Positions 5,043 to 24,650 of a DNA stretch of 64,000 nucleotides are shown piece after piece. The stretch comes from Winogradskyella vidalii. Lineage in GTDB: Bacteria; Bacteroidota; Bacteroidia; Flavobacteriales; Flavobacteriaceae. The notes under the pieces were generated by a model, which ran no database searches, was not told the origin of the DNA, and saw only the letters and a program-made list of their open reading frames with translations. Every line of letters begins with the position of its first letter. Within the stretch, counting starts at the first letter, position 1. The stretch spans positions 372,001 through 436,000 of the forward strand of contig NZ_JABFDG010000001.1 of the NCBI RefSeq assembly GCF_013403955.1, in the 5' to 3' direction. Position numbers and translations under genes: made by a program.

Positions 5043-5208
5043 TTAGTGCTTTTGAAAGTGCGAAAATACGATTTTGAAAGCGTAAATGTTTACTATTTAC
5101 GGCAACTTTTTAAGTGCGCTCTATCTGAAAGTACATAACGAAATTCATGCTTTTCTATAATATTCAACTAATTGCTGAAATGATAACCGTTTTTATACTT
5201 TTTAGAGT

Positions 5209-5230
5209 CTGAAACTGAAACTGAAACTGA
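5209..5230. repeat. Short hexanucleotide tandem repeat (CTGAAA)
   Basis: About 3.7 copies of CTGAAA lie 9 bases beyond the stop of the polyferredoxin gene (stop at 5240) and 166 bases before the start of the glycosyltransferase operon. It could vary in copy number by slippage. No coding or operator role is evident. Confidence 0.6.
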
Positions 5231-5239
5231 GACCAATCC

Positions 5240-6829: not shown

Positions 6830-6834
6830 TTTTG

Positions 6835-9242: not shown

Positions 9243-9244
9243 CT

Positions 9245-9976: not shown

Positions 9977-10068
9977 TTAAATGTAAAAGGTGTTTCAGTT
10001 AAACGAGTGCTCTTTGTTGATTTTCCTGATTTGTGTGAAATAATTAAGTTCTTAAAAGTACCTCTATA

Positions 10069-10094
10069 CCTGCAAGGCTTCAAAACCTTACAAG
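10069..10094. repeat. Interspersed palindromic repeat (CCTGCAAGG family)
   Basis: The element begins CCTGCAAGGCTTC and ends AACCTTACAAG, forming an imperfect hairpin in the convergent gap between the phosphatase and glycosyltransferase genes. Related copies occur at 12737, 12787, 51512, 55584, 56227, 58765 and 62634. It may act as a bidirectional transcription stop here. Confidence 0.6.
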
Positions 10095-10099
10095 ATAAT

Positions 10100-10963
10100 T
10101 TAACAGACATTCTTGTTGTAATAAGCCAATAAATCATCTGCAGAAGCACCAAACCATTTTTTTAAATGAATTGTAAAAAAGTAATATTGCACCTTCCAGA
10201 CACCGTGTTTCCTATACATGCGAGCTGAGGTTTTTAGTTTTTTATTGATAACAACAAATTCTTTACGAGTATAGAGTTCGTTAATTAAAATATTGTCTTC
10301 ATAGATGGTGTAATTTTCATTATAACCACCAATAGTATCAAAAAGCGTTCGGGTAATAAACTGACTTTGGTCACCGCCTCTAGAAACGCGCCACGAAAAT
10401 TGCGTAAACCAACTCGCCAGTTGTAACCACCAATGGTTGCTATCAAACTGCAATCTAAAACAACCTGCTTGGTTGCCTTTGTTGACTTCATTTATAATTA
10501 GTTGGTCAAAATGTTTTGGTGGAAAAGAATCGGCATGAAGAAAATATAAAATAGCGCCCTTGGCATGCATTGCGCCTCGATTCATTTGTTTTGCTCTGCC
10601 TTTTGACGAATTAATCAAAATAATTTTTGGTTGATTCACTGATTCTATTGCGAAAGCTTTCGGAGTTGTTTCAGAATCTTTTACGGCGTTATCTAGTTCG
10701 TCAGTTTGAGTAAAATTCCGTTTTTGGAATTTTGTATCGAGAACATCTTTATTAGCTTCTCGATACAATTCTTCAAGTTGTTCAGAATCACTCGAAGTGA
10801 CGAAATTGCTAACAATGTCCATAGTACCATCCGTACTGCCGCCATCAACCAAAATAATTTCAGTAACAGTAATATTATTCGCATCAGAATGCTCAAGAAG
10901 ATGCGTTAATAAAGCTTCAATACCATCAGCTTCGTTTAAAACAGGAATGATTATACTTATCAT
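10100..10963 (-). CDS. GT2 glycosyltransferase, arsenosugar/rSAM-associated type (TIGR04283-like), with palindromic insert
   Basis: A 287-residue GT-A fold transferase. It has IIIPVLNEADGI (4-15), LVDGGSTDGT (38-47), then SSKGRAKQMNRGA (after residue 115) and FLHADSFPP, the hallmarks of the TIGR04283 group found next to ArsS-type radical SAM genes. Family members run to about 230 residues. The excess is a polar, charged stretch at about residues 55-112 between strand 2 and the SSKGRAKQMN motif. The DNA of that stretch is full of perfect palindromes (see 10645-10802). The core motifs on both sides are intact and in frame, so the protein is probably functional. It is the last gene of the 13-gene minus-strand run and follows the DUF547 gene by 33 bases. 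Its presumed job is to glycosylate the arsenoribose or a related product. Confidence 0.85.
   Translation of the reverse strand: MISIIIPVLNEADGIEALLTHLLEHSDANNITVTEIILVDGGSTDGTMDIVSNFVTSSDSEQLEELYREANKDVLDTKFQKRNFTQTDELDNAVKDSETTPKAFAIESVNQPKIILINSSKGRAKQMNRGAMHAKGAILYFLHADSFPPKHFDQLIINEVNKGNQAGCFRLQFDSNHWWLQLASWFTQFSWRVSRGGDQSQFITRTLFDTIGGYNENYTIYEDNILINELYTRKEFVVINKKLKTSARMYRKHGVWKVQYYFFTIHLKKWFGASADDLLAYYNKNVC
10645..10802. repeat. Palindrome-rich repeat element inserted in frame in a coding gene
   Basis: Within the glycosyltransferase gene there are four palindromes in 150 bases: CGAAAGCTTTCG (10651-10662), AAAATTCC/GGAATTTT (10712-10719 and 10726-10733), TTGTATCGAGAA/TTCTCGATACAA (12-bp arms, 10732-10743 and 10757-10768), and TCACTCGAAGTGA (10788-10800). 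The words are typical of intergenic flavobacterial repeats, yet here they are translated. Insert edges are approximate because no uninterrupted homologue is at hand. Confidence 0.65.
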
Positions 10964-10996
10964 ATTATGATATACGGAAATAATAAGAAAAGAGTT

Positions 10997-11785
10997 TTAA
11001 TCATTCAAATCCCAATTATAATCCGAGTAACTTTTCTTAGCCGATTCTGAAATGGTAACATCTGAATATTGATTTAGAAAATCAATTAAACTTCCATTTT
11101 GCTCAAAATCTTTTTTAAACCATTTAAATATTTTTGAAATTTTTATGCCGTCTTTTGAAAGTTCGTTTTTAGTTGAATCCGCTAAAAATTCTTTTGTGGC
11201 TTTGGTTAATTGTGCGTCTAATTTTGAAGCTATAAAAGCTTCATTTTGCAATTTCGGACACGATACAGACGCACAAACAATAGCGAAATGTATTCTAGGT
11301 TCATCCATGTTTCTGAGAATTTTATGCTCAATATCGTTAAGATTTTGCCAAGTATCACCCAATTTCCAAAGCCGTTGATTCCAAGGATCTTTGATGTCTT
11401 TAATGCTTTTTGTTGGGTAATTTCTAAGGATTAAATCTACGGTAAGCGCGTTATAAGCATTTATCCAATAGGCTAGTTTTTCATTTTTAGACCATGTGTC
11501 GTCAGGTTGTGTATCACTTAAATAGTCAATATAAATATCAAATTCAGTCTTGTCATTTTTAATGGCTTTATAATCTACATTCCCATCATCTGATACATGG
11601 TTTTGTAAAATCGTATGCCATCGCTTGTGCATTAATTCTTTAAAATTTGCAGACTTTTTCGGTGGTTTTGGTGGAAGCGGAATTTTAGCTTCAATCTCAT
11701 GGTCTTGATTTGTAATGGGCTTTTGGAAACCGAAACACGACGATATAAATAGTAGCGTAATAATTAGTACTGATATATTTTTCAT
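10997..11785 (-). CDS. DUF547 domain lipoprotein
   Basis: A 262-residue protein with a lipoprotein signal (hydrophobic residues 4-15, FISSC with Cys17), a Pro/Lys-rich linker (IPLPPKPPKKS) and a DUF547 domain. The domain's typical stretches are YWINAYNALTVDLIL, WNQRLWKLG, DEPRIHFAIVCASVSCP and FNEAF-like LQNEAF. DUF547 has remote likeness to transglutaminase/papain-like folds, but no activity is established, and I assign none. It lies 12 bases after the fatty-acid-hydroxylase-family gene and 33 bases before the TIGR04283-like transferase, inside the arsenosugar-type run. DUF547 genes are often seen beside such clusters. Predicted location is the periplasmic side of the outer or inner membrane. 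Confidence 0.85.
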   Translation of the reverse strand: MKNISVLIITLLFISSCFGFQKPITNQDHEIEAKIPLPPKPPKKSANFKELMHKRWHTILQNHVSDDGNVDYKAIKNDKTEFDIYIDYLSDTQPDDTWSKNEKLAYWINAYNALTVDLILRNYPTKSIKDIKDPWNQRLWKLGDTWQNLNDIEHKILRNMDEPRIHFAIVCASVSCPKLQNEAFIASKLDAQLTKATKEFLADSTKNELSKDGIKISKIFKWFKKDFEQNGSLIDFLNQYSDVTISESAKKSYSDYNWDLND

Positions 11786-11797
11786 CTTAAATTGTTC

Positions 11798-12700
11798 TTA
11801 TTGGTGAGATTTCCGTTTGCGTTGAAATGCAGGATATGCAGACTGACTCATAAAATCTTTAGGGAAGTTTTCATCATCTTCAAAACCGATTTCAATATCT
11901 CTGCCATCGTGTGGAATGTAATCGGTTTTAAATAAATAATCCCAAAGGCTTAAGGTGATTCCGAAATTCACACCAAAACGTTCGCCTTTCGGTAATTCTT
12001 TTACGTGATGCCAAATGTGCATTTTCGGATTGTTGAAAACGTATTTTAAAATGCCGTAATCCCAACCCAAATTGGCGTGGTTTAAATGGCCAATAGCAAT
12101 ATTGAAGAAATAGACGATGGCTACATCTTGCGCATCAAATCCACCAATTACAGCAAGCGGAACGTATAAAATAGTTTTATAAACAATAGGTTCCATCCAG
12201 TGATAGCGCAAGTGACCTGCAAACCCCATTTCTTTGATGCTGTGATGTACTTTGTGGAAATTCCACAGCCATTCAAAACGGTGTAAAAGCCGATGTGTAT
12301 TCCATTGTACAAAATCCGACACGATAAAAAGGATAAATAAGCCTAACCATTTAGGTAATGTTTTCACATCAAAAAGTTGAAAACTTGAAAGTGATAAGCC
12401 AACAACTCCCAAAATATCATTGAATACTTCCGAAACCGTATTAGACAGCGCAATAAGTATAATGAGATTTAAAAGAAAGAAATTGAAGAACATATAAAAG
12501 GTATCTAACCAAAAATCTTTTCTAAAAAGCGCTTGCTCTTTTCGCCATGGAAAGGCAATTTCTAAAATCCAGACTAAAACAGATATTAGAATAAGACCAT
12601 AGAAGAAATTGTCCCAATGGTTAAGGTCAATGAGCTCATATTTTAAATAATTCCAGTAACTGGAATAGGATTTTGTGAATATGTCTAGGTATTTTTCCAT
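11798..12700 (-). CDS. Sterol desaturase / fatty acid hydroxylase superfamily membrane protein
   Basis: A 300-residue membrane protein with four to five spans and the eight-histidine di-iron signature of this superfamily: HRLLH (HxxxH), FHKVHHS (HxxHH) and HIWHH (HxxHH). These enzymes oxygenate or desaturate lipids, including alkyl ether lipids. The start is set at ATG 12698-12700 (MEKYLD). A longer frame up to 12751 would add 17 residues encoded entirely by an intergenic hairpin repeat, so it is rejected. The right arm of that hairpin leaves AGGAAG close to the chosen ATG and could act as ribosome binding site. Placement between the purine phosphorylase and DUF547 genes, in an ArsS locus, raises a lipid-modifying role (for example arsenolipid formation); this is inference only. 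Confidence 0.85.
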   Translation of the reverse strand: MEKYLDIFTKSYSSYWNYLKYELIDLNHWDNFFYGLILISVLVWILEIAFPWRKEQALFRKDFWLDTFYMFFNFFLLNLIILIALSNTVSEVFNDILGVVGLSLSSFQLFDVKTLPKWLGLFILFIVSDFVQWNTHRLLHRFEWLWNFHKVHHSIKEMGFAGHLRYHWMEPIVYKTILYVPLAVIGGFDAQDVAIVYFFNIAIGHLNHANLGWDYGILKYVFNNPKMHIWHHVKELPKGERFGVNFGITLSLWDYLFKTDYIPHDGRDIEIGFEDDENFPKDFMSQSAYPAFQRKRKSHQ

Positions 12701-12705
12701 GTAAC

Positions 12706-12723
12706 TTCCTGCGAAAGCAGGAA
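12706..12723. repeat. Small hairpin repeat (TTCCTGC-GAAA-GCAGGAA)
   Basis: A perfect 7-bp stem with GAAA loop lies directly before the start codon of the fatty-acid-hydroxylase-family gene (start at 12700). The same word recurs at 22457, 22507, 51645, 55309 and, in weaker form, near 62541. On the minus strand its second arm gives AGGAAG spaced 5 bases from the ATG. Confidence 0.75.
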
Positions 12724-12736
12724 TCTCATTTTTAAT

Positions 12737-12813
12737 CCTGCAAGGTTTCAAAAACCTTGTAGGTATTGATTCTTTATTTTATTAGACCTACAAGGTTTTT
12801 GAAACCTTGCAGG
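12737..12813. repeat. 28-bp perfect inverted repeat built of two palindromic elements
   Basis: The arm at 12737-12764 is exactly reverse-complementary to the arm at 12786-12813, with a 21-base spacer. Each arm is itself a hairpin of the CCTGCAAGG family. A partial third copy follows at about 12820-12836. The block sits between the phosphorylase stop (12858) and the hydroxylase-family start (12700). It would fold strongly in RNA and may reduce read-through into the distal genes. Confidence 0.85.
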
Positions 12814-12857
12814 TCTTCCTCAAAGGCCTTGTAGGATTATCCGTGTTAAGCCAACTT

Positions 12858-13670
12858 TTAAAGCGTCTTTATCAACTCCTTAAACAACGTAATCATATGT
12901 GGCTCCGCCTTACCTGCCATAGCAATAATTTCAGAAATATCAACAGGTTTTAAGTCATCAGGATTACATTCATCCGTTAAAACAGAAACGGCAGCAGCTT
13001 TTAAATTTAAATGATTAGCCACAATAATTTCGGGTACTGTACTCATACCAACGGCATCTGCACCAATCGTTTTTAGCATGCGGTATTCTGCTCGTGTTTC
13101 AAGCTGAGGACCAACAACAGACGCATAAACACCCTTATGTAATGTGATGTTATGGTCTTTAGCAATATTCTCAAATTTCGAATTGATGTCTGCATCATAA
13201 GGTGCGCTCATATCTGCAAAGCGCTCGCCTAATTCTGAAACGCCTTTAAATGCTAATGGCGAACCACCTTGAAGATTAATATGGTCGTCAATAAGCATTA
13301 ATTCGCCTTTTTTATAATCGAGATTAATAGCTCCAGAAGCATTAGAAACCAATAAGGTTTTGATGCCTAACTTCTCCATAATCCGCACAGGAAATGTGAC
13401 GTCTTGAAGTGTATAACCTTCGTAAATGTGAAAACGACCTTGCATTACAACCACCTTTTTACCTTCAAGCATTCCATAAATCAGTTTGCCCTTATGAAAT
13501 TCTACTGTAGCCGTTGGGAAGTTAGGAATGTGATTGTAACTGGCTTCTGCAATGATGTCTAATTCATCAATCAACTGGCCTAATCCTGTTCCTAAAATGA
13601 TGCCGATTTCAGGGGTTTCAAAACCTTTGCTTTGTAAATATTCGGTACTTTCTGTTATCTGATTAATCAT
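12858..13670 (-). CDS. Purine nucleoside phosphorylase (trimeric NP-I class, PNP/MTAP family)
   Basis: A 270-residue cytoplasmic enzyme. It has the phosphate loop LGTGLGQL (26-33), QGRFHIYEGY (77-86, His81), VSNASGAIN (108-116), GPQLETRAEY (188-196, Glu191) and GMS (208-210). It phosphorolyses purine nucleosides to the free base and ribose-1-phosphate. At the position where 6-oxopurine PNPs carry Asn (human Asn243), this protein appears to have Asp233 (VLTDEC). Asp is the residue found there in methylthioadenosine phosphorylases, whereas Glu191 is PNP-like. Base preference is therefore uncertain and adenine nucleosides are possible. The gene overlaps the upstream DUF2064 gene by 8 bases. In an ArsS locus it could remove adenine from the deoxyadenosyl product. 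Confidence 0.9.
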   Translation of the reverse strand: MINQITESTEYLQSKGFETPEIGIILGTGLGQLIDELDIIAEASYNHIPNFPTATVEFHKGKLIYGMLEGKKVVVMQGRFHIYEGYTLQDVTFPVRIMEKLGIKTLLVSNASGAINLDYKKGELMLIDDHINLQGGSPLAFKGVSELGERFADMSAPYDADINSKFENIAKDHNITLHKGVYASVVGPQLETRAEYRMLKTIGADAVGMSTVPEIIVANHLNLKAAAVSVLTDECNPDDLKPVDISEIIAMAGKAEPHMITLFKELIKTL

Positions 13671-14292
13671 TGAGTTGCTGTATTTTTTCTTGTAATTTTA
13701 AATTCGATTTATAAAAGTCTGAAGCAATTAAATCTTCATATGTATCAATATCATTCAACGTGTCTAAGATACCAACTGAAATTTGATTATTGTGTAACTC
13801 TTGTAACGTTTCTGTTAACAAATGGGGTTGACTCCAGGGTTTGTTTGTGAAAATTGAAGTTTCAAGTTGCGACATGCCAACCAAATAATAACCACCATCT
13901 TCTGCAGGTCCAAAAACAACTTCATTTTGATCTAAAGCTTTTAATCCATTCAGAATGTGTGAAGCATCAATATCTGGTAAATCAGAACCAATCAAAACAA
14001 TTTTTTTGTAACCCGCTTCAAAACCGTCTTTAAAAGCAATGGACATACGTTCGCCTAAATCGGCGCCTTCTTGAACAGTTTTAAAATCATGTTCCCATTG
14101 TGAATCCACTATAGTATTAGAAAAATAAATGCGTTTGTCTATGTCTAAAGCTTCAGTGGCGTTCTCTGTAATCTTAACCAATTCGGTATATACTTCAAAG
14201 GCACCAAAGTCGCCAATAGTTTTAGCGAGACGTGTTTTTACGGTTCCTAATTTTATATTTTTTACAAATACAATTACAAGTGTATCAGTCAT
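13663..14292 (-). CDS. DUF2064 / TIGR04282-like transferase, arsenosugar/rSAM-associated
   Basis: A 209-residue protein related to CofC/GlmU-type nucleotidyltransferases. It carries VFVKNIKLGTVKTRLAK (9-24), the nucleotide-binding signature, then LIGSDLPD, FGPAEDGGYYLVG and TLNDIDTYEDL near the C-terminus. These match the TIGR04282 group that accompanies ArsS-type radical SAM genes. It probably activates or transfers a sugar using an NTP, though the exact reaction is not established. Overlaps of 8 bases with both the rhodanese gene upstream and the phosphorylase gene downstream indicate tight translational coupling. A second, more divergent paralogue lies at 21771-22451 in the same run. Unlike that copy, this one keeps the KTRLA motif and is the likely catalytic form. 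Confidence 0.85.
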   Translation of the reverse strand: MTDTLVIVFVKNIKLGTVKTRLAKTIGDFGAFEVYTELVKITENATEALDIDKRIYFSNTIVDSQWEHDFKTVQEGADLGERMSIAFKDGFEAGYKKIVLIGSDLPDIDASHILNGLKALDQNEVVFGPAEDGGYYLVGMSQLETSIFTNKPWSQPHLLTETLQELHNNQISVGILDTLNDIDTYEDLIASDFYKSNLKLQEKIQQLND

Positions 14293-14779
14293 ATATTTTG
14301 TTTCCTTTTAAAAGCCATTGGCTCCATTCTTTTGAAAATGCATGTACATTTTCAGTGGGTTTATTTTCAATATCGTAAACCGTGAAATCTTTGTTCTTCC
14401 ATTCAAAAATACCACCAAATAAATTATAGACATTGGTGTAGCCTACTTTTTCGAGTTGTTCTGCGATATCTTCAGAGCGAATTCCTAAGGAACAATAAAC
14501 GACTATTGTAGTCGATTTATCAGTTATGCTCGTGGTAATGTTTTCAATATTAAACTTATCATAACCAACATGAATAGCGTCTTTGAGATGACTCGTTTCA
14601 TATTCAATGAGCTCTCTTGAATCTAACAAAATAGCGTCTGTTTTTGGCATGGCTAATTCTTGCACAGAGATATACGGAATGCTTTCTTTATTATATGTTT
14701 TTAGCAAATTTTCAATCGTTTCTTGGCCATTTAACAAAAAGCTAAAGAGTAAAAATGATAATGTAAAGATTTTATGCAT
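14285..14779 (-). CDS. Exported rhodanese-like protein
   Basis: A 164-residue protein with a cleavable-type signal peptide (MHKIFTLSFLLFSFLLNGQ) and one rhodanese domain. The active-site loop is YCSLGIRS (Cys96), preceded by LLDSRELIEYETSHLKDAIHV (split around residues 51-71). The six-residue loop is the length used for sulfur substrates. Rhodaneses move sulfane sulfur through a Cys persulfide; a periplasmic copy may act on thiosulfate or on thiol-reactive oxyanions. The gene lies 30 bases after the metallophosphoesterase gene and overlaps the DUF2064 gene by 8 bases. A sulfur-transfer or thiolation step fits a locus that might handle thio-arsenicals, but no direct evidence supports that. Confidence 0.85.
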   Translation of the reverse strand: MHKIFTLSFLLFSFLLNGQETIENLLKTYNKESIPYISVQELAMPKTDAILLDSRELIEYETSHLKDAIHVGYDKFNIENITTSITDKSTTIVVYCSLGIRSEDIAEQLEKVGYTNVYNLFGGIFEWKNKDFTVYDIENKPTENVHAFSKEWSQWLLKGNKIYD

Positions 14780-14809
14780 GCCTTTTTAGTGCTATTAATT
14801 AAGGTAACC

Positions 14810-15637
14810 TTACAATTCTATAGGTTGTCCTTGCTGTTTTTTTTCAGTCTCAGGTAAAATTTCCATATTGTCCCAAAGACCAGAAACGATTGTTTTGGCA
14901 TAAGATTCTGGAAGTAATCCATTTAACATAAGTTGATTTGCTAGTGTATGATTGTAGTCTAACTTACGAAAATTCACCTGTAAGGGTTTTACTGAATCAT
15001 CTAAAATAGCATACCAAACATTCGGTTTTCCGTCGTTGGCAGGCATGCCAATCACACCAGGATTTACCCAGAGTTTAGCATCGTTCTTATCTTCAAAAGG
15101 CAAGCCACAATGTCCAGCAATAATGATGTTGCTTTCTGTAGCTTCAAAATTAGATTGTTTAGTAGCCCAAGCTGTCGATTTAAAAACAAATTCTGAAATA
15201 TTAAAATAAGAACCATGAACGACAGTCACCTTCTGATTCCCAATGGTGAATTTAATATGGTCTGGAATCGTTTCAAGATAGTTAAGTGAATCTTTAGAGA
15301 GTTTACTCTTCGCATAAGGATACCATTGTTGTGAAAAACCATCGCATCGCGACCCTTCTCTAAAATCACAACCGCAATCGTCTTCATCATCACGTAATTG
15401 TATTTCAACATTACCAACAATGCTTCTGGTATTCCAGTTTTTGAAGGTCTGAATGGTTTCTTCGGGTTGCGCGCAATAACCAATAATATCGCCAGTGCAG
15501 ATACAGTTTTCAGGCGGAATGCCTTCAGATTCTGCCACAGCAATTAGTGCTTCAAGGGCTTGAAGGTTGCTGTAAACACCACCAAAGAGTAGTACTTTAC
15601 CTGATAATTTTCCTATGTCAATTATGTTTTTATCCAT
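14810..15637 (-). CDS. Metallophosphoesterase-fold protein with altered metal ligands and a cysteine cluster
   Basis: A 275-residue protein with the calcineurin-like fold order, but the usual SDIHGN motif reads GGVYSN (residues 19-24), replacing the metal-binding Asp and His by Gly20 and Tyr22. GDIIGY (49-54) keeps Asp50; GNHE is GNVE (75-78), losing the catalytic His; VVHGSY keeps His141; GHxH is GHCG (175-178), losing the last His. It has a conspicuous Cys cluster, DDCGCDFREGSRC (Cys88, 90, 98), plus Cys45, 47 and 55. It may be a non-classical hydrolase or a metal/metalloid binding protein. It starts within the symporter gene's end (16-base overlap), so it is coupled to it. Membership of the fold is fairly sure; activity is not. 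Confidence 0.75.
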   Translation of the reverse strand: MDKNIIDIGKLSGKVLLFGGVYSNLQALEALIAVAESEGIPPENCICTGDIIGYCAQPEETIQTFKNWNTRSIVGNVEIQLRDDEDDCGCDFREGSRCDGFSQQWYPYAKSKLSKDSLNYLETIPDHIKFTIGNQKVTVVHGSYFNISEFVFKSTAWATKQSNFEATESNIIIAGHCGLPFEDKNDAKLWVNPGVIGMPANDGKPNVWYAILDDSVKPLQVNFRKLDYNHTLANQLMLNGLLPESYAKTIVSGLWDNMEILPETEKKQQGQPIEL

Positions 15638-16962
15638 TTCGGTATGAAATATAAAATATTACAACTTAAAATTCCCCAAATATTAACCCAAAGTAAATCG
15701 GCATACTTGCCTTCTGTAAAAATTAGGGCTTCTGGGAATACCTCAAAAACGAGTAAAAATCCAAATACGAGTCCTGTAATCACACTAAGATAAAAACTCA
15801 ATTTTGGAACTTTAATATTCCAGAATAAAAAAACCGGTGTTAAACCAATAACCATCGTTCCTGATATGGTGGTTGCTGATAAAATTTCGGCTTCGAGAAA
15901 AACAGGTAGTGTGCCCAAAATCGCTATGGCAGCCATAGATGCTCTTCCAAAAGTTAAATCGTTAACCATGCCTAAATCAATCGCTAATAATTTTGAAAAG
16001 GACGAAAATGTTGAGTCTAGTGTGGATGCTGCCGAGGTTATCATAATAAAATTAATGACTAATAAAATAACCACACCAAAGGCTTTGCCAACTTCTACGG
16101 CGGCTTGACCTTTAAAACCTTGGGTTTGCGCATAGACACCAATGACGCTAAATAGTATAATGCAAATAGCACCTAATAAACTCGCCCATAAAAAACTTTT
16201 TCGGGTGACTTTAGGTGAACTGATAAAGGCTCTATCGGTTAAAACCGGATCGTGAAATGGATAACTAAAGGATTGGATAATGGCTGCAAAAAACAAATTT
16301 AAGCCCAATTCAAAACTCCAAGTTCCAGAAGTGACGACATCAGTAACGCTAAAAGTGTCTATTGAAAAGATATTCCATAGAATTACCATCAGTAGAATAC
16401 TAAATAAAACCATCTGAATCACATCAGTAAAAATAGAACTACTCAAACCGCCTTTTATCGCATAAGCTAATGTCAATATGGTGAAAATTATTATGGCTTT
16501 GTAGTAGTTAGAACTTCCTGTTTCGCCAAAATAACTACCAATAACCATGGTATTACTCCAGACTTCATTAAACAATCGGATGGCAATTAATATAGAAAAT
16601 AAAGCCATGGCTCCTTTTCCGAATTTGGTGGTTAAAAATTGATGAATACTTTTAAATCCGCCAACAACGCGCATTTTGTAAATTAGTAAACCAGCGATAG
16701 CAAACGATACATAATATCCAGCATAAGCAACGCCTCCAACAATACCAAAGCTTAAACCTAAATTGGCTGCATTGGTAATGCTCTTGGCAAAAATCCAAGA
16801 AATGATAAGGCTTCCGGTAAGCACTAAAGCGTTTGGTGCTTTCTTTTTATGAACCGCCTTAAAAAATTCGTCTGTAGTTTTTGCTAATGGCGATAATATA
16901 AAGAGTAGTAAACTCGATGCAATTATCAATGTCCATTGCCAGTTAATTATATCCATATGCAT
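15622..16962 (-). CDS. Sodium:solute symporter (SSS family)
   Basis: A 446-residue inner-membrane protein with about 12-13 hydrophobic spans and the LeuT-fold SSS layout. It shows IISWIFAKSITNAANLG (early span), GGFKSIHQFLTTKFG (cytoplasmic loop), YAIKGGLSSSIFTDVIQM and TSAASTLDSTFSSFSKLLAIDLG (Na2-site region). It is somewhat shorter than the usual 500 residues at the C-terminus. It would carry a small solute inward with sodium. The gene abuts the SusD gene (0 bases between) and overlaps the metallophosphoesterase gene. With SusC/SusD upstream this forms a two-membrane uptake route, outer membrane then inner membrane. Whatever passes through is likely a sugar, nucleoside or metabolite used by this locus. 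Confidence 0.85.
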   Translation of the reverse strand: MHMDIINWQWTLIIASSLLLFILSPLAKTTDEFFKAVHKKKAPNALVLTGSLIISWIFAKSITNAANLGLSFGIVGGVAYAGYYVSFAIAGLLIYKMRVVGGFKSIHQFLTTKFGKGAMALFSILIAIRLFNEVWSNTMVIGSYFGETGSSNYYKAIIIFTILTLAYAIKGGLSSSIFTDVIQMVLFSILLMVILWNIFSIDTFSVTDVVTSGTWSFELGLNLFFAAIIQSFSYPFHDPVLTDRAFISSPKVTRKSFLWASLLGAICIILFSVIGVYAQTQGFKGQAAVEVGKAFGVVILLVINFIMITSAASTLDSTFSSFSKLLAIDLGMVNDLTFGRASMAAIAILGTLPVFLEAEILSATTISGTMVIGLTPVFLFWNIKVPKLSFYLSVITGLVFGFLLVFEVFPEALIFTEGKYADLLWVNIWGILSCNILYFIPKWIKT

Positions 16963-18405
16963 TTATTCGTTCCACCAAACTGGCACGTTTATACTATTGT
17001 TGTCGGTTGCGTTGGCTGCAACACTGTAATTTTCAAAATTTAAAGCGGCTTCTTCTGCAGGATAAGGCATTCTTATCGGAATTAAATCGTTGTTTAAACT
17101 TGCGGAAATAGTTTGTAATTCAGGGAAGCCTGTTCTTCTGTATTCTATCCAGCCTTCGTAACCATTAATAACATTGGCTATCCATTTTTGCGTTAAGATT
17201 TGTTCTATTGGGTTTGACCCAAAAGCATTATAAGCTGCAGGACCAGAAAGGTAATCTGTAGGTAGTTCCGTGTGCCAATACTCAAACGCTAACGTAACTC
17301 CAGCGGTGTATAGCGTTTGTGCATCTGCATTGATAAAACCTTTGGCAGCCGCTTCGGCTAAGGCGAATTGTACTTCCCAAGCTGTGATAAAATTAGCATC
17401 TAAAGTTGAAGTATCTTCTCTGAAAGCTGTGCTTGCTAAAGAATAATCTGCTAAAGCAATAGAGGTAGAGGATGCATCAATACCGTTTAGCAAACCATTA
17501 AATTCATTAGTATTTGAATTTGAAAACGGACGAAATAAACTTGAAAGTCTCGTGTCATTCAAGCCAATCAAAATATCTTCCATTGTTTCGGATAAGACAA
17601 AATTGTTGAAATCACCAATGCGTAATTGTGCCAATCTAAAACTGTTTGGGTCTGTATTTGTAAAATTGAAAATGGCATTCTCACTGTTGGAAGTGATATA
17701 GTTGCCTTCATCAAAAAGCGTTTGTAAATCACTAGAAACATCTACTTTATCTGAAATACGAACCAAATGTTTAATTTTTAAAGCATTCGCAAATTTTATC
17801 CAAGCGTTTAAATTGCCATCAAATAAAATATCGCCTTCCAATGGAATCACATCAGTATAGGCTTCAATAGCCGCAATACCTTTATCTAAATTATCTAATA
17901 TACCGTTTTCATTAAGATAGATATCTTCTTGTGAATCGTATGATGGTGTTACGGTGCCTTCGACACCATTGAACGCTTCAAAATAGGGAACGTCTCCAAA
18001 TAAATCAGTTAAACCAGCAGCCATATAGGCTTTTAAAATTAATGCAGGACCTTCGTAAACAGAAAAGGTTTCTGTTGTTCTAGCTTGATTTAGGATAATT
18101 TCATTATCTCTCAAATTGGTATAAAAAATAGGCCAAGGATTACCTCCTAATTGTGGTGATTTTAAAGCATGTCTATCAAATAAATTGAAATCTAAAGCGG
18201 TTCTATGTTGTGCTAATAAATCACCAGCAACAAAGCCTTCGTAACTCATGTTTTCTCCAAAATCGTAAATAACCTGTCTTAGCAACAAACTCGGTTGGAC
18301 TGAACTTGGTTGGTTTGGATTGGTATTGATGTCTTCAAAATCTTTGGTACAACTCATTGTTGTTGCAATAAATAGAACCGAAAGTATATATGTGAAATTT
18401 TTCAT
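16963..18405 (-). CDS. SusD/RagB-family outer-membrane lipoprotein (SusD-like_2 type)
   Basis: A 480-residue protein with lipoprotein signal (LFIATTMSC, Cys19) and the SusD start KDFEDINTNPNQP, typical of the SusD-like_2 branch (often paired with peptide or metabolite rather than starch transporters). It is predicted as a surface lipoprotein that caps the SusC barrel and binds ligand. TPR-like helices are expected in the N-terminal half (GPALILKAYMAAGLTDLFGDVPYFEAF). It begins 83 bases after the SusC stop and runs straight into the symporter gene. The ligand cannot be predicted. Co-location with ArsS and a phosphorylase suggests a locus-specific substrate. Confidence 0.9.
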   Translation of the reverse strand: MKNFTYILSVLFIATTMSCTKDFEDINTNPNQPSSVQPSLLLRQVIYDFGENMSYEGFVAGDLLAQHRTALDFNLFDRHALKSPQLGGNPWPIFYTNLRDNEIILNQARTTETFSVYEGPALILKAYMAAGLTDLFGDVPYFEAFNGVEGTVTPSYDSQEDIYLNENGILDNLDKGIAAIEAYTDVIPLEGDILFDGNLNAWIKFANALKIKHLVRISDKVDVSSDLQTLFDEGNYITSNSENAIFNFTNTDPNSFRLAQLRIGDFNNFVLSETMEDILIGLNDTRLSSLFRPFSNSNTNEFNGLLNGIDASSTSIALADYSLASTAFREDTSTLDANFITAWEVQFALAEAAAKGFINADAQTLYTAGVTLAFEYWHTELPTDYLSGPAAYNAFGSNPIEQILTQKWIANVINGYEGWIEYRRTGFPELQTISASLNNDLIPIRMPYPAEEAALNFENYSVAANATDNNSINVPVWWNE

Positions 18406-18422
18406 TTAAAATTTTATTTTCA

Positions 18423-18487
18423 TTCCCTTGTAAAAGGGAACTTTATTCTTTTATTTTCTCTTCTTGAGATTCTCACTTTCGTGAGAA
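18423..18487. repeat. Two small hairpin repeats between SusC and SusD genes
   Basis: TTCCCTT/AAGGGAA (18423-18440) and TTCTCAC/GTGAGAA (18470-18487) are perfect 7-bp stems with 4-base loops. The second begins immediately after the SusC stop codon. They could protect the SusC mRNA end or tune SusD expression. Confidence 0.7.
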
Positions 18488-21400
18488 CTAGAAGTTAAAT
18501 CCGGCTTTAAAACCAATACTTCGTGTTGTAGCATAACTCATGTCTTCAACACCACTTACAAATCCATTGCCTTGAACGGCTAATTGTTCTGGGTCGAAAT
18601 GCGGATTTTCGGTTATGGCAAATAAGTTGTTTCCAACTAAGGAAAGACTAATGTCAGCACCTTCTTTCAAACCTAAAAATCCATCTTTTATATCAAAAGT
18701 ATAGCCAATAGCGAATTGGCGTAGCTTCAAAAAGGAAGCGTCATAAACATTATTTTCTTCGTGATTTCTATCATAAAATTGTCGGTAATAACTTTCTGAA
18801 GTAATCGCAACGGTATTTGCTTGTCCAGTATTTACATTGACACCTTGTGCAACAATTCCGGCATCTGGTCGGTAACTCGTTTCTGCTAGTTGACCACCAA
18901 CATTTCCTAAGGCACGTGTTCTAGAAACGATTTCGCCTCCTTGTCGCCAATCGAATAAAAAGCTCATATTCCAATTTTTATAATTGAAATTGTTACTCCA
19001 TCCTAATGTGAAATCTGGATTATAATTTCCTAATTTCTTTAAGTTGTCATCGGCAATGTAGTTACCATTATCATCAATTAAAAATTTACCATTTTCATTT
19101 TTTAGATAACCAGTTCCATAGAAATCTCCAACACGTCCACCTTCTTCCACCTGAAACCAAACCGTTTGGTTGGCGCTATCATAAATCCTGCTGTAAGCAA
19201 GTGTTAACCTTCCGTCCGACTGTGGTAAGTTTTTAATAACAGAGCGATTAGTGGCGAAGTTAAACGTGCTATTCCAATTGAAGTTATCCGTTTGAATTGG
19301 TGTAATTCCTAAAACTATTTCCACACCTTGTGTATTTACGTTGCCACCATTAACGACTTGTTGACTGTAGCCCGAAGAAATGGCAACTGGTAATGAAATA
19401 ATCTGGTCTTTTGTATTGGCATTGTAATACGTAAAATCGAATCGTAGTCTATTATCTAAAAATCGTAAATCTGTACCAAACTCATAAGAGGTAGTACTTT
19501 CTGGTTTTAAATTGGCATTGGGAATAAAATCTTGGTCGCTAAACGTAGGTTCGCTATTGTATGGTGTTTGTGATACAAAAGCACCAGAAGTTTGGTAAGC
19601 ACTTGTGTCGTTTCCAACTTGTGCCACACTCGCTCTCAGTTTTGCAAACGATACAGCATTTGGTAATTCTACAACATTAGATAAAATAAAACTTGAAGAG
19701 ATAGAAGGGTAGAAAAACGAAGTGCCATCTACCGAAAAACGTGTGGCTAATGCACTAGACCAATCATTCCGTCCTGTAATATCTAAGAATAAAAAGTCTT
19801 TATAACCCAGTTTTGTAATACCGTAAAATGAGTTGATACGCTTTTCACTTTCAAATTGAAAGACTTCAATAGGTGAAGCTGCATTGTTTAAATTGTAAAT
19901 TCCAGGTTGTGCCAAACTAACCGTTTGCGATTGTTTAGTGGTTGCGATTTGGTTCAATCTATTCCCACCTAAAAAAACATCCACAGAAATATTATTAAAC
20001 TGATTTTTATAGTTGATTAAAAAATCGGTATTCACTTCTCTAAACATTACGTCGTGCTCTGCATAAGCACCATTACTAAAACGATTACTGCTGTAGGCTC
20101 TTCGTAATTGTCGAGTTTCGGTGCTGTAATCCATTCCTGTTCTAAGAGAAACACTTAAATTTTTAGTTAGGTCTTGAGTAATAGAAATGTTACCAAAAAT
20201 TCGGTCGCGATTAAAGGAATTGGTGTTCTCATTTAAAATGAAATATGGATTATCAAAAAAGGTATAGTTAAAAGAATATTGTTGTGTACCTTCTAAACCT
20301 GGTTGCCAATAAGTTTTTAGATTTTGAATATTTAAAGAACGTGGTCCCCAAGCTACCAAAGAATAATTGGCATTTTCACTTCCATAACCATTAGCAGGTC
20401 TATTGTCACTATTCGAATTTATATAACTGAAAGATGAATTGATTTCGGTATTGTCACTTGGTTGAAAGTTTAATTTAGCAGAAATAGTTTGGCGGTCTAA
20501 ATTAACACCAGGAATAATAGATTCACTTCTCAAATCGGTGAACGATAATCGGTAATTTCCAGAATCGAACCCATTAGAAATTGAAATATTATTAATAGTT
20601 GTAACGCCAGTTTCATAAAAATCTTTCAAGTTATTTGGATTCGATTTAAAAGGTGTTGCCGTAATTGCTAAACCGTCATACAAAGAAGTATCGCCTCCAC
20701 GAACAATAGAACCATTTGGTAATTGCACAGGACTATCAAATTGCGCAATCAACAAACCAGTATCTAAACGAGGCCCCCAAGAATAGGTGATATTATCATT
20801 GATGCCGCCTCCAAGACCATCACCATATTCAAACTGACCAGAATTACCTTGACCGTACGAATTTTGAAAATCGGGCAACCTAAAAGCAGTGTCCACAAAA
20901 AGCGAGGAATTAAAACTAATACCTAAACCTCTTTTGTTTTTTCCGTTTTTGGTTTCAATAACAATAACACCATTAGATGCTCTTGTGCCATATAATGCAG
21001 CAGCACTTGGTCCTTTTAAAACGGTTACAGAGCCAATATCATCAGCATTCACTTCCATACCACCATTTCCAAAATCAATTTCTTGAAATCCGGCTGCAGC
21101 TTCATTGGTGAAATTAAAAACCGTTTCGTTGTTAATCGGCACACCATCAACCACAAATAAAGGGTTGTTATTAGAAAAAGACGCTTCGCCTCTAATCGTA
21201 ATTTTAGAAGAAGATCCAACGCCTGTGGCACCTTGTGTAACCGTTACTCCAGCTAATTTACCTTGTAAGTTGTCTAGGAAGTTTACTGTTTTTACTTCCG
21301 TTAATTTTTTAGAGGAAATGGCTTGCACAGCATAACCCAATTCTTTGGTGTCGCGTTCTAAACCTAATGCTGTAATTACGACTTCATCTAAAGCAGCAGA

Positions 21401-21682
21401 ATCTTCTTGTAATTCAATATTGATAATTGTTTGATTTCCAACTTCAATAGTTTGTGATTTATAGCCCAAAGATGAGTAGGTGAGTTTATCTGTAGTTGAA
21501 TTAACGACTATTGTGTAGGTGCCATCATCACTTGAGGTCGTTCCATTGCCGTTGCTAGATGAAATGTTTACAAAGGGCAAAGGTGTTTTAGAACTGGCTT
21601 CCGTAACTGTTCCGGTAATTGTAATTTGGGCATTACTGAAAAAGCAAAAGCATAACAGTAAGCATAGGTAAATGTGCTTCAT
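18488..21682 (-). CDS. SusC/RagA-family TonB-dependent outer-membrane transporter
   Basis: A 1064-residue protein with signal peptide (MKHIYLCLLLCFCFFSNA), an N-terminal carboxypeptidase-regulatory-like domain (about 20-95, GTVTEASSKTPLPFVNIS), the DEVVITALG TonB-box region near 100, a plug domain (LDNLQGKLAGVTV, VLKGPSAAALYGTRASNGVIVIETK, to about 245) and a 22-strand barrel ending in GFKAGFNF with terminal Phe. It imports a ligand captured by SusD, powered by TonB-ExbBD (not encoded here). The length is usual for the family. No sigma/anti-sigma or hybrid two-component regulator adjoins it and no glycosidase is next to it, so it is not a standard polysaccharide locus. It lies 88 bases downstream of the second DUF2064 gene. 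Confidence 0.95.
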   Translation of the reverse strand: MKHIYLCLLLCFCFFSNAQITITGTVTEASSKTPLPFVNISSSNGNGTTSSDDGTYTIVVNSTTDKLTYSSLGYKSQTIEVGNQTIINIELQEDSAALDEVVITALGLERDTKELGYAVQAISSKKLTEVKTVNFLDNLQGKLAGVTVTQGATGVGSSSKITIRGEASFSNNNPLFVVDGVPINNETVFNFTNEAAAGFQEIDFGNGGMEVNADDIGSVTVLKGPSAAALYGTRASNGVIVIETKNGKNKRGLGISFNSSLFVDTAFRLPDFQNSYGQGNSGQFEYGDGLGGGINDNITYSWGPRLDTGLLIAQFDSPVQLPNGSIVRGGDTSLYDGLAITATPFKSNPNNLKDFYETGVTTINNISISNGFDSGNYRLSFTDLRSESIIPGVNLDRQTISAKLNFQPSDNTEINSSFSYINSNSDNRPANGYGSENANYSLVAWGPRSLNIQNLKTYWQPGLEGTQQYSFNYTFFDNPYFILNENTNSFNRDRIFGNISITQDLTKNLSVSLRTGMDYSTETRQLRRAYSSNRFSNGAYAEHDVMFREVNTDFLINYKNQFNNISVDVFLGGNRLNQIATTKQSQTVSLAQPGIYNLNNAASPIEVFQFESEKRINSFYGITKLGYKDFLFLDITGRNDWSSALATRFSVDGTSFFYPSISSSFILSNVVELPNAVSFAKLRASVAQVGNDTSAYQTSGAFVSQTPYNSEPTFSDQDFIPNANLKPESTTSYEFGTDLRFLDNRLRFDFTYYNANTKDQIISLPVAISSGYSQQVVNGGNVNTQGVEIVLGITPIQTDNFNWNSTFNFATNRSVIKNLPQSDGRLTLAYSRIYDSANQTVWFQVEEGGRVGDFYGTGYLKNENGKFLIDDNGNYIADDNLKKLGNYNPDFTLGWSNNFNYKNWNMSFLFDWRQGGEIVSRTRALGNVGGQLAETSYRPDAGIVAQGVNVNTGQANTVAITSESYYRQFYDRNHEENNVYDASFLKLRQFAIGYTFDIKDGFLGLKEGADISLSLVGNNLFAITENPHFDPEQLAVQGNGFVSGVEDMSYATTRSIGFKAGFNF

Positions 21683-21770
21683 ATGTAGACCACAAGCATG
21701 GCTATTTTTTAAAATGTGAGATTATTTAGCTGAAAAAATCTTTAGGTATTAATGACATTAAAACCCAATT

Positions 21771-22451
21771 TTAAATATGAAGTAAGGCAGGTGAGCCTTT
21801 ATTGTAGTGTTTGTTGAAAACGGTTCTACCTTGAAAAACAGAAGCGACTGTTGCAATTGTTTTTACTTTTTTTAGAATTTTTAAAAGCAATTTTCTAATA
21901 TTGAAATCTAAAGATTTAAAACTCTTTAAGACCAATTCTATATCTGAAGTGTCATCAATATCAGTTAGCGTTTCTAAATAAGAAACACTTTCATTTTGCT
22001 GTTGTAATTCTTGATGTAAACAACGTCTTAATTTAGATGTTTGCCAAGGTAAATTTTGGATGTCTGTTTTACTGAAATGTGCTTTTTTAAAACCCATTAA
22101 ATAGAAACCTCCATCGGTTGAAGGTCCTAAAACATAATCTAAATGTTCTAATTTATCTTTAGCTTTTAAAATAAGATGAGCCGTAAGGTTGGGAATGTCA
22201 TTACCAAGTGTAATCACATTTTGAAACCCTTTATTAAAAACGGTTTCAATAGCGTTGGTAAAACGCTCGCCAAATGAATGTCCTTTTTGTGCTTTCTCAG
22301 AAATATGAAAATAAGGTAAACCGGCTTTTTTTACTGTTTTTACAGTATCAGAATCAAGCAAATTAAAAAAGTCCGCAGAAGCAACTGATTTTGACGTCAA
22401 TTGTTTTTCTGCAGAATTTGCAAAGATTAATATGGCGGTTTTGTTATTCAT
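21771..22451 (-). CDS. Divergent DUF2064 (TIGR04282-like) paralogue
   Basis: A 226-residue protein sharing with the 13663-14292 gene the stretches TLGNDIPNL (82-90), VLGPSTDGGFYLMGF (107-121), LPWQTS and LTDIDDTSD. The N-terminal KTRLA nucleotide-binding signature is missing; the start reads AILIFANSAEKQLTSK instead. It carries a basic C-terminal tail of about 45 residues (RKLLLKILKKVKTIATVASVFQGR) absent from the other copy. It may be a regulatory or inactive partner of the first paralogue, or use another donor. The gene lies between ArsS (79 bases upstream, gap with two hairpin repeats) and SusC. Confidence 0.75.
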   Translation of the reverse strand: MNNKTAILIFANSAEKQLTSKSVASADFFNLLDSDTVKTVKKAGLPYFHISEKAQKGHSFGERFTNAIETVFNKGFQNVITLGNDIPNLTAHLILKAKDKLEHLDYVLGPSTDGGFYLMGFKKAHFSKTDIQNLPWQTSKLRRCLHQELQQQNESVSYLETLTDIDDTSDIELVLKSFKSLDFNIRKLLLKILKKVKTIATVASVFQGRTVFNKHYNKGSPALLHI

Positions 22452-22456
22452 ATGTC

Positions 22457-22526
22457 ATTCCTGCGAAGTCAGGAATCTTATAATTTTAGATTCTCTTATT
22501 TTCTAGATTCCTGCTTTCGCAGGAAT
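22457..22526. repeat. Pair of ATTCCTGC hairpins between arsS and the DUF2064 gene
   Basis: Two copies of the ATTCCTGC...GCAGGAAT element: 22457-22476 (with a mismatch, AGTC) and 22507-22526 (perfect). They fill the 79-base gap. Same family as at 12706 and 55309. They would form stem-loops in the polycistronic RNA and are candidate processing or attenuation points. Confidence 0.75.
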
Positions 22527-22530
22527 TTAT

Positions 22531-23592
22531 TTATGCAACAACCCCTTGACAACTACTTCCTGCGCCGGCAGTGCAACCATAGCAGTGTTGAGAAATAACG
22601 ATGTTACGTCCTTCTAATAACTCTTCGTTAAAATCAGAAACATGTCTCGATTTACTATTTACAGGTAATTCTAGCATTTGGTTAAAATCACAATCAAATA
22701 AATAGCCGTCCCAACTAATAGAAATCGTGTTGGTACACATCACATTTTCTACAGCAGCCGGATTATAAGCTTCTACTAAAGAATACATGTAATCTTCGTA
22801 ATTTTCTGAAGCGATTAAATAATCTAAGAATCGTGCGATAGGTAAATTCGTAATGGCAAATAGGTTATGAAATTCAATACCAAAATCTTCCATTAAGGCC
22901 TTTTTGAAATCCTTTTCCATAGCAGCTTGGTCACCTGGTAAAAAAGCGCCTGACGGATTGTACACTAAATCTAATTTTAAATCACTCCCTGGCATGCCGT
23001 AACCAACAGCATTCAATTCTTGCAACGCTTTAATCGATTTATCAAAAACACCATCACCACGTTGTTTATCCGTTTTTCCACGTGTCCAGTGTGGCATAGA
23101 ACTTACCACATGTACATTGTGTTTTTTAAAGAATTCTGGCAAGTCATAATATTTTTTGTTGGCTCTAATAATGGTCAAGTTAGAACGCACAATGAAATCT
23201 TTAATGCCAGCTTTAGCAGCTTCTTCTACAAACCATCTAAAATCAGGATTCATTTCAGGTGCGCCACCAGTTAAATCTAGCGTGTGTGCGCCTGAGTTTT
23301 TTATCACCTCAAGACATTGTCTCATGGTATCTCTGGTCATTATTTCTTTTCGGTCCGGACCAGCATCTACGTGGCAATGGTCGCAAACTTGGTTACACAT
23401 GTAGCCCACATTGATTTGTAGGATTTCTAATTTTTTAGCCTTAAGTGGAAATTGACTTGTTTCAGAAATTTTATCCTTGAAAGTTGGTAATTCACCACTT
23501 TTAAAGATACCATTTGAAAGTATTTCGAGTTGTCTATTACTTTGCGCTAAGTCGTTGCCTTGTTTTTTTAGTGATTTTGTTGCTGTCGCCAT
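22531..23592 (-). CDS. arsS: Radical SAM enzyme ArsS, arsenosugar biosynthesis type
   Basis: A 353-residue cytoplasmic radical SAM protein. The SAM-cluster motif is GYMCNQVCDHCH (Cys66, 70, 73), followed by DLTGGAPEM. The C-terminus has VMCTNTISISWDGYLFDCDFNQ and the characteristic HCYGCTAGAGSSC (Cys337, 340, 348), probably ligands of an auxiliary centre. This arrangement is that of TIGR04167, the selenodomain/arsenosugar group; here the positions are ordinary Cys, not selenocysteine. ArsS together with ArsM was shown in cyanobacteria to be needed for oxo-arsenosugar formation, by joining a 5'-deoxyadenosyl group to dimethylarsenite. No arsM is in this window. It lies 81 bases after the CMD-like gene and near the head of the 13-gene run. 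Confidence 0.9.
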   Translation of the reverse strand: MATATKSLKKQGNDLAQSNRQLEILSNGIFKSGELPTFKDKISETSQFPLKAKKLEILQINVGYMCNQVCDHCHVDAGPDRKEIMTRDTMRQCLEVIKNSGAHTLDLTGGAPEMNPDFRWFVEEAAKAGIKDFIVRSNLTIIRANKKYYDLPEFFKKHNVHVVSSMPHWTRGKTDKQRGDGVFDKSIKALQELNAVGYGMPGSDLKLDLVYNPSGAFLPGDQAAMEKDFKKALMEDFGIEFHNLFAITNLPIARFLDYLIASENYEDYMYSLVEAYNPAAVENVMCTNTISISWDGYLFDCDFNQMLELPVNSKSRHVSDFNEELLEGRNIVISQHCYGCTAGAGSSCQGVVA

Positions 23593-23640
23593 TAATCTAT
23601 TTCGGGTTTTGAATGCTTGCTCATTAATTGAGTGCTGATT

Positions 23641-23657
23641 TTTCCCCTATGGGGAAA
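23641..23657. repeat. Hairpin repeat TTTCCCC/GGGGAAA
   Basis: A perfect 7-bp stem with a 3-base loop in the gap between the CMD-like gene and arsS, followed by AAAAGGGGC. It is related to the GTCCCCTCAAGGGGAC repeat at 55477. Confidence 0.65.
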
Positions 23658-23673
23658 TTAAAAGGGGCTTTTT

Positions 23674-24009
23674 TTACCCATCTAATTTGTTGACTTTATT
23701 CATCATTTGTACACCATGTACTAAAGTGGCACCGCTTTTTATGGCTGCACCAACATGTATGGCTTCCATCATTTGTTCTTTGGTAATCCCACGTTGAAGC
23801 GTATCTTTTGTGTAAGCGTCGATACAATAAGGACATTGTTCTGTATGTGCTACTGCTAAGGCGATTAGTGATTTTTCACGAGCAGTAAGGGCGCCTTCTT
23901 CAAAAACTTTTCCGTAATAGTCAAAGAATTTGTTTCCTAGTTCTTCACTCCATTCGGTTATTTTTCCAAATTTGCGTAAATCCGCAGCGTCGTAATATGG
24001 TTTTGACAT
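23674..24009 (-). CDS. Small carboxymuconolactone-decarboxylase/AhpD-like protein, ArsS-associated
   Basis: A 111-residue helical protein of the CMD/AhpD fold. The redox motif is HTEQCPYCIDAY (Cys59, Cys62). AhpD peroxidases have His four residues after the second Cys; here that position is Tyr66, as I recall for the ArsS-linked subgroup. LIALAVAHTEQ and IHVGAAIKSGATLVHG are family stretches. It may be a thiol oxidoreductase that reduces an arsenic intermediate or protects ArsS. Its role has not been shown. It is the first gene of the minus-strand run. The 90-base gap to the upstream deaminase gene should hold the promoter, but no clear consensus or ArsR-type operator was recognised. Confidence 0.85.
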   Translation of the reverse strand: MSKPYYDAADLRKFGKITEWSEELGNKFFDYYGKVFEEGALTAREKSLIALAVAHTEQCPYCIDAYTKDTLQRGITKEQMMEAIHVGAAIKSGATLVHGVQMMNKVNKLDG

Positions 24010-24099
24010 AAAATTGTGTTTTGATTAAAAAAATCAATATACAATCTTATGTCGAAGTTGAATTGTAAAGATTACAGAATTTATAAAATTTGGGATAAA

Positions 24100-24573: not shown

Positions 24574-24650
24574 ATGATATGAAATGTCTTTTTTATTAAA
24601 ATAAAGGTATTAAATTTTAAAGCGTTGAATGGCTAAATTGAAACATCAAC

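Follow-up and report, generated by a model that had tools for sequence, protein, structure and literature searches.

In the portion of PMC12159101 drawn on here, arsenosugar synthesis is described as involving a radical SAM enzyme that adenosylates arsenic, and in the excerpted text of PMC8552651 the arsenosugar radical SAM enzyme ArsS acts together with ArsM in Synechocystis. The present analysis concerns a stretch of 64,000 nucleotides of the Winogradskyella vidalii genome (contig NZ_JABFDG010000001.1, positions 372,001 to 436,000), henceforth referred to as the window, which contains an arsenosugar-type gene run with no arsM and with a predicted two-membrane importer in its midst. To our knowledge, no outer-membrane route for organoarsenic has been described. 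Searches of the open-licence literature, some of them confined to top-ranked results, returned neither a transporter for arsenosugars nor arsenosugar operons in Flavobacteria. The evidence presented below makes it probable that the run is an arsenosugar operon carrying a separable organoarsenical import cassette, and that import supplies dimethylarsenic in the place of ArsM.

The arsenosugar genes themselves are near-standard in the family, with ArsS scoring over its cut-off in 288 of 397 family genomes and in 185 of 237 genera. Operon layout was first read from 80 ArsS loci of 80 genomes. The commonest layout, from which individual genes are often missing, is CMD-ArsS-rhodanese-DUF2064-PNP-ArsM-FAH-DUF547-TIGR04283, where PNP is a purine nucleoside phosphorylase and FAH a fatty-acid-hydroxylase-family protein. 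A second group of loci has ArsS with CMD alone and ArsM elsewhere. Scans of the gene following PNP in two members, one of them (L018) from Winogradskyella, matched it at 577 bits to NF038099, the curated arsenosugar ArsM model.

Thirteen open reading frames (ORFs), all on the minus strand, fill the window from position 24009 down to 10100. Eight are parts of the standard operon (CMD-like, ArsS, rhodanese, a TIGR04282 DUF2064 protein referred to as DUFb, PNP, FAH, DUF547 and TIGR04283). Between ArsS and rhodanese sits a block of five genes encoding a divergent DUF2064 protein (DUFa), SusC, SusD, an SSS-type sodium symporter (SSS) and an altered metallophosphoesterase (MPE). The sequence-only reading of this DNA had described thirteen co-directional genes, as found here, and had called many of them overlapping; three overlaps (SSS/MPE by 16 bases, rhodanese/DUFb by 8 and DUFb/PNP by 8) and one abutment (SusD/SSS) bear this out in part, whereas the remaining eight junctions are gaps of 12-106 bases. 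Its statement that all ArsS-associated markers are present holds for TIGR04167, TIGR04169, TIGR04282 and TIGR04283, which are over cut-off, but not for NF038099, which is missing. Judged from gene spacing alone, the run may form a single transcript. Matches to a Bacteroidetes-type promoter pattern fell inside genes only, and 60 sigma-70-like sites were observed against 54 expected.

The absence of arsM, claimed from the window, was confirmed for the whole genome, which is 99.99% complete in 53 contigs: neither NF038099 (E ≤ 1e-60) nor NF008823, the canonical ArsM model (E ≤ 1e-20), gave a match. Five weak NF008823 matches of at most 36 bits were present. Of the two best of these ORFs, read by eye with no family scan, one resembles a UbiE/MenG-type and the other an unspecific methyltransferase. 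A tblastn search of positions 9001-26000 with the ArsM of one relative hit nothing beyond 25 residues within FAH, at chance level (E 0.69). At the site where most relatives have arsM, in the order PNP-ArsM-FAH, the window has a gap at 12701..12857. An ACR3 arsenite exporter is present in this genome, as it is in six other genomes queried.

The transporter genes constitute a separable cassette, DUFa-SusC-SusD-SSS-MPE. SSS served as its marker, and a profile built from 17 aligned SSS proteins (alignment A1) was searched in the 397 family genomes. SSS was found in 52 of them, each at 649 bits or more, and the other genomes gave no match at E ≤ 1e-60, the weakest level listed. It occurred in 51 of 288 ArsS-positive genomes versus 1 of 109 ArsS-negative genomes (Fisher 4.9e-7). 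All 52 SSS places were read, namely 51 fetched loci and the window. The proximity of the SusCD/SSS genes to ArsS, which the sequence-only reading had met at a single locus, recurs in relatives: in the window and in 49 of the 51 fetched loci, no more than a single 20-kb stretch holds both SSS and ArsS. SusC, SusD, SSS and MPE stand together in 44 of the 51, and the cassette is cut by the edge of the fetched stretch in L070, L081 and L086. Its placement varies; it follows ArsS, precedes CMD-ArsS or ArsS, follows ArsS with ArsM next, follows ArsS-ArsM, or stands alone (L107).

Named cassette loci were taken as the best 80 of 515 matches of one search. Among these 80, ArsS was present in 78 (the two without it start at a contig end), SusC in 74 and DUFa in 71. 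Carriers among them include Winogradskyella, Psychroserpens, Lacinutrix, Polaribacter, Algibacter, Tamlana and Olleya, and further Gelidibacter, Bizionia, Dokdonia, Aequorivita, Maribacter, Allomuricauda and Frigoriflavimonas; all eight of the SSS proteins nearest to that of the window, at 94-98% identity, are from Winogradskyella. Strains whose cassette operon has no arsM include Winogradskyella eximia CECT 7946 (L145), Psychroserpens damuponensis JCM 17632 (L159) and Algibacter lectus DSM 15365 (L202). In a phylum sample of 296 genomes, SSS was detected in six: the genome of the window, two others from its family and three from other families. The five new genomes all carry ArsS. ArsM was sought in these five with NF038099, which was not over cut-off in the three from other families, one of which (G464) has a 116-bit match.

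Presence of the cassette was associated with absence of arsM. Among the 288 ArsS-positive genomes, NF038099 was absent in 31 of 51 with SSS versus 33 of 237 without (Fisher 2.2e-11). Canonical ArsM (NF008823) was then sought in the 64 ArsS-positive genomes lacking NF038099 and in G242, and was detected in 18 of the 33 SSS-negative genomes versus 1 of the 31 SSS-positive ones, that single gene (G121) containing an internal stop. Neither ArsM model matched in 30 of 51 SSS-positive versus 15 of 237 SSS-negative ArsS-positive genomes (Fisher 2.3e-16), counts in which six of the 15 (G062, G065, G095, G170, G281 and G305) and one of the 30 (G140) are less than 90% complete.

Since Fisher tests ignore kinship, three controls were applied. 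In 13 mixed genera, assembled by hand, NF038099 was kept by all 15 SSS-negative members; the SSS-positive member lacked it in 7 genera and had it in the other 6, which amounts to 7 vs 0 in a sign test (p 0.016). The second control used a tree of a seven-gene operon concatenation with 119 ArsS rows, the ArsS-only tree having provided a single supported independent pair. The rows comprised 50 SSS-positive loci, the window included, and 69 SSS-negative loci, of which 64, selected for low contig number, came from the upper part of the ArsS match list and the other five (G338, G046, G063, G267 and G308) were hand-picked; L107 and L116 have no ArsS in their stretch and were left out. NF038099 is absent from 8 of the 69 SSS-negative rows, and ArsM of either kind from 4. 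SSS changes 18 times on this tree, and 15 supported independent pairs divided into 8.5 for the association, 1.3 opposed and 5.2 with no difference, at a modest median p of 0.039 (range 0.006-0.289). Lastly, a four-state model of correlated evolution favored linked over independent evolution (likelihood ratio 24.5, p 6e-5; for both ArsM kinds 31.1, p 3e-6), the p-values being rough as two rates stood at a bound in both runs: y10|x0 at its upper bound of 54.6, and cassette loss once ArsM is gone at the lower bound, 0.0001. Overall, the link between the cassette and arsM absence is of moderate to good strength, short of proof.

Loss of ArsM in cassette operons is fairly specific. Thirty-five fetched cassette loci with ArsS and PNP on one strand were compared, PNP thus being present by choice. 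The 19 without ArsM retain rhodanese (19), DUFb (19), TIGR04283 (18), DUF547 (18) and FAH (13), and the corresponding numbers for the 16 with ArsM are 16, 16, 13, 14 and 11. The SSS-negative genomes without any ArsM were read at their ArsS stretch in 14 of 15 cases (all except G281), several stretches being cut short. A single-cluster layout readable to its end was found in seven (L064, L137, L138, L140, L231, L236 and L239), and six of these lack rhodanese and TIGR04283 (L137 and L239 belong to one genus). The seventh, L138 of G063, has an intact operon in a genome matching neither ArsM model, and its cassette slot after DUFa (L138:4791-12330) holds a different importer, made up of a TonB receptor and a binding-protein ABC system (PRK11622-type binding protein, two permeases and ATPase), along with a second radical SAM protein. 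Of the other stretches, L232 has no rhodanese and ends just past PNP at a contig end; the layout differs in L237, L238 and L240; and L241-L243 are too short. Eleven SSS-negative loci from genomes with canonical ArsM were also read. L082 has a split layout; of the ten others, rhodanese and TIGR04283 are present in six (L057, L097, L245, L246, L247 and L249) and missing in four (L037, L244, L248 and L250), so reduced operons also occur in genomes that have an ArsM.

One cassette genome without ArsM has a gene for an MFS transporter after PNP, at the ArsM site (L079:5165-6328), and an unscanned ORF of the same size occupies that site in L132.

The cassette proteins were characterized by sequence and predicted fold. 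DUFa (21771..22451, minus strand, as are all features of the run) matched PF09837 at 76.9 bits and reached 104.7 bits with TIGR04282, below the cut-off of 134; its translation lacks the N-terminal GxVKTRLA-type stretch present in DUFb. The two DUF2064 proteins of the sequence-only reading are thus two by the Pfam model, and only DUFb (13663..14292) passes TIGR04282. SusC (18488..21682; TIGR04056, 599.1 bits, cut-off 368) is a TonB-linked outer-membrane transporter whose closest solved sequence is BT2264 (408 bits). It is adjacent to SusD on the same strand, as in SusCD uptake systems, and SusD, an SusD-like_2 surface lipoprotein (16963..18405; PF12771, 296.2 bits, cut-off 27), retrieved general SusD homologs only. 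SSS (15622..16962) represents a distinct subfamily with a weak PF00474 match (24.9 bits, cut-off 22.8). The fold of its model (pLDDT 73; three of five models were below 41) is nearest SiaT, SGLT and CHT1, with a Foldseek E of 2.2e-9 to 5nva. MPE (14810..15637; PF12850, 40.1 bits, cut-off 27) was modeled at pLDDT 86.8, with 3rqz and SapH (3qfm) as closest folds. The full motif set of two-metal metallophosphoesterases is DxH, GD, GNH(D/E), H and GHxH; the alignment of 17 MPE proteins (A3) shows GGxYSN, GD, GN(V/I)E, H and GHxG instead, and Cys 45, 55, 88, 90 and 98 are invariant in 17 of 17. MPE is perhaps an arsenic-binding or single-metal protein. Taken together, the likeness of SusC to BT2264 and the predicted folds of SSS and MPE make the putative two-membrane importer well based. 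In two loci, MPE and the CMD-like ArsS partner share one reading frame (L070:1557-2810 and L081:1631-2875).

In the mechanism considered here, SusC and SusD would carry an organoarsenical over the outer membrane, and its passage through the inner membrane would fall to the sodium symporter. The cargo would be dimethylarsenic or would be converted into it, and MPE, with conserved cysteines that possibly hold trivalent arsenic, may process or hold it. ArsS would add a deoxyadenosyl group to the dimethylarsenic, PNP may remove the base to leave a sugar-1-phosphate, DUF2064 may activate this to a nucleotide sugar, and TIGR04283 may transfer the sugar to an acceptor. Import would replace the step from arsenite to dimethylarsenic that ArsM performs in relatives. 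We infer the direction of import, the cargo and all enzymatic steps after ArsS, those of PNP, DUF2064 and TIGR04283 being judged from their protein families. The retention of ArsS in 51 of 52 SSS-positive genomes makes it probable that the imported compound, as a source of dimethylarsenic, enters the pathway after ArsM and before ArsS; if import does the work of ArsM, the gene would become dispensable, and it is often lost. Import of the ArsS substrate, or of a compound that yields it, would predict a dispensable ArsM together with a retained ArsS. The suggestion from the sequence-only reading that the cell imports a precursor rather than starting from arsenite is supported by the retention of ArsS in 51 of 52, by its proximity to SSS in 49 of 51 fetched loci and the window, and by the absence of ArsM in 30 of 51 versus 15 of 237. 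Its other suggestion, salvage of arsenosugars or a related nucleoside, might also apply, but taken alone it would leave the retention of ArsS alongside the loss of ArsM unaccounted for.

Several observations weigh against precursor import in the place of ArsM. NF038099 is kept by 20 of the 51 cassette genomes, so import is not always a replacement for ArsM, and also by G476 and G671, the two further family genomes of the phylum sample. Among the best 80 of 515 named loci, 24 of the 68 that hold PNP hold ArsM as well (in Winogradskyella, 2 of 16). SSS-MPE occurs without SusCD in L055, L078 and L084, all from genomes with an ArsM; SSS stands alone at L116, in the one SSS genome without ArsS (G242), and the cassette of L107 lies apart from ArsS. 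An importer next to ArsS was seen in only 1 of the 14 ArsS stretches, several of them truncated, that were read from SSS-negative genomes without ArsM. The tree-pair p-values extend up to 0.29, and an algal lifestyle could drive both cassette gain and arsM loss. BT2264, the nearest solved relative of SusC, is not known to be an arsenic transporter, and the fold match of SSS names no cargo.

Two alternatives merit discussion, both of them unlikely. In the first, the cassette imports ready arsenosugars or arsenolipids, which are remodeled into the cell's own arsenolipid or degraded, ArsS serving a side route or recycling freed dimethylarsenic. The cargo of SusCD systems is generally larger than dimethylarsinate, the MPE fold is near that of the phosphodiesterase SapH, and several of the named carrier genera are often found with algae. 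If a finished sugar were imported, however, ArsS should be as dispensable as ArsM, whereas it is retained in 51 of 52 SSS-positive family genomes and in 5 of 5 further ones; part of the MPE metal ligands is also lost.

The second alternative, which we likewise regard as improbable, is that the cassette meets an arsenic-free need, such as an acceptor, a nucleoside or a sulfur or methyl source, and that arsM was lost for other, lifestyle-linked reasons. The similarity of SusC to BT2264 and the retention of ArsM in 20 of 51 cassette genomes would fit such a cargo. Loss nevertheless strikes ArsM and largely spares its operon neighbors, and import of an acceptor would leave ArsM indispensable. The SSS-negative genomes also argue against it: 18 of the 33 without NF038099 hold another ArsM, and of the seven readable operons without any ArsM, six lack rhodanese and TIGR04283 and the seventh has another importer. 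It is very improbable that ArsS in cassette strains acts on an imported compound of another element (phosphorus, selenium or sulfur), for which the absence of ArsM and the weak similarity of the ABC permeases of the G063 importer to phosphonate and oxyanion permeases could be cited, as ArsS, CMD, TIGR04282 (DUFb) and TIGR04283 all score above arsenosugar cut-offs and genomes with both ArsM and the cassette exist, which speaks for one shared element.

Import of a dimethylarsenic source remains the preferred explanation. A more tentative extension is that marine flavobacteria use a dedicated system to scavenge methylated arsenic of algal origin, from which they build arsenosugars or arsenolipids, and that they no longer synthesize it themselves. 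If so, arsenic would be handled as a nutrient, beyond being a mere poison, and some marine bacteria would want methylated arsenic and rely on others, perhaps algae, to make it. The cassette offers named strains and genes for a direct test of organoarsenic use.

The remaining genes of the run begin with the CMD/AhpD-like partner of ArsS at 23674..24009 (TIGR04169, 192.8 bits, cut-off 120) and ArsS itself at 22531..23592 (TIGR04167, 443.8 bits, cut-off 300). Downstream of the cassette are rhodanese at 14285..14779 (NF045521, rhoda_near_glyco, 204.7 bits, cut-off 145), DUFb (TIGR04282, 188.5 bits, cut-off 134, with a weak CofC match to PF01983 of 29.2 bits) and PNP at 12858..13670 (NF006054, 338.3 bits, cut-off 218). 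The membrane protein FAH is listed at 11798..12751 (PF04116, 92.3 bits, cut-off 31), and its true start is probably at 12700, judged from the start in relatives. DUF547, with a lipoprotein-like start, lies at 10997..11785 (PF04784, 97.8 bits, cut-off 27), and the TIGR04283 glycosyltransferase at 10100..10963 (216.5 bits, cut-off 182) appears to contain an additional segment around residues 52-90, which interrupts its alignment to the profile.

Two palindromic repeats lie in the gap between PNP and FAH, at 12737-12763 and 12787-12813. This intergenic repeat of about 27 bases occurs in the window at 10069-10094, 12737-12813, 51512-51538, 58765-58842 and 62634-62645, and its half-repeat, at up to 2 mismatches, gave 18 matches versus 5.8 expected. 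Several Winogradskyella loci without arsM have similar palindromic repeats between PNP and FAH; the repeat in the arsM gap is perhaps a scar or a spreading element. Past the operon, positions 2863-8139 encode two glycosyltransferases of family 2, a 4Fe-4S protein and an FAD/NAD(P) reductase. The reductase might supply electrons to ArsS; of 53 operon loci without the cassette, 40 have a homolog of it within the same 20 kb. One operon with ArsM contains phosphate-transporter-like genes (L021:8829-12240; PstC over cut-off, PstS- and PstB-like genes below), which could bring in arsenate.

Compared with known systems, the SusC/SusD pair of the window resembles BT2263-2264 in being TonB-linked. It differs from SusCD systems of polysaccharide utilization loci in being joined to ArsS and a sodium symporter, with no glycan-degrading enzyme among the thirteen genes; a GH113 gene at 8235-9242 lies outside the run on the opposite strand. 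SSS shares the fold of SiaT, SGLT and CHT1, although its sequence match to CHT1 is weak (31 bits), and it exceeds the Pfam SSF cut-off by 2 bits and, at 36.7 bits, stays below the TIGR00813 cut-off of 184. MPE shares fold and overall sequence with PF12850 metallophosphoesterases such as 3rqz and SapH but is without the DxH ligands and the last His of GHxH, and has five invariant cysteines. With the cyanobacterial pathway of Synechocystis, in which ArsM and ArsS act, the window has in common the ArsS family TIGR04167 and its usual partners, whereas its genome has no detected ArsM and SusCD-SSS-MPE stand inside the operon. With the standard flavobacterial operon the run shares gene order and all parts except ArsM, and it is distinguished from that operon by the cassette inserted after ArsS.

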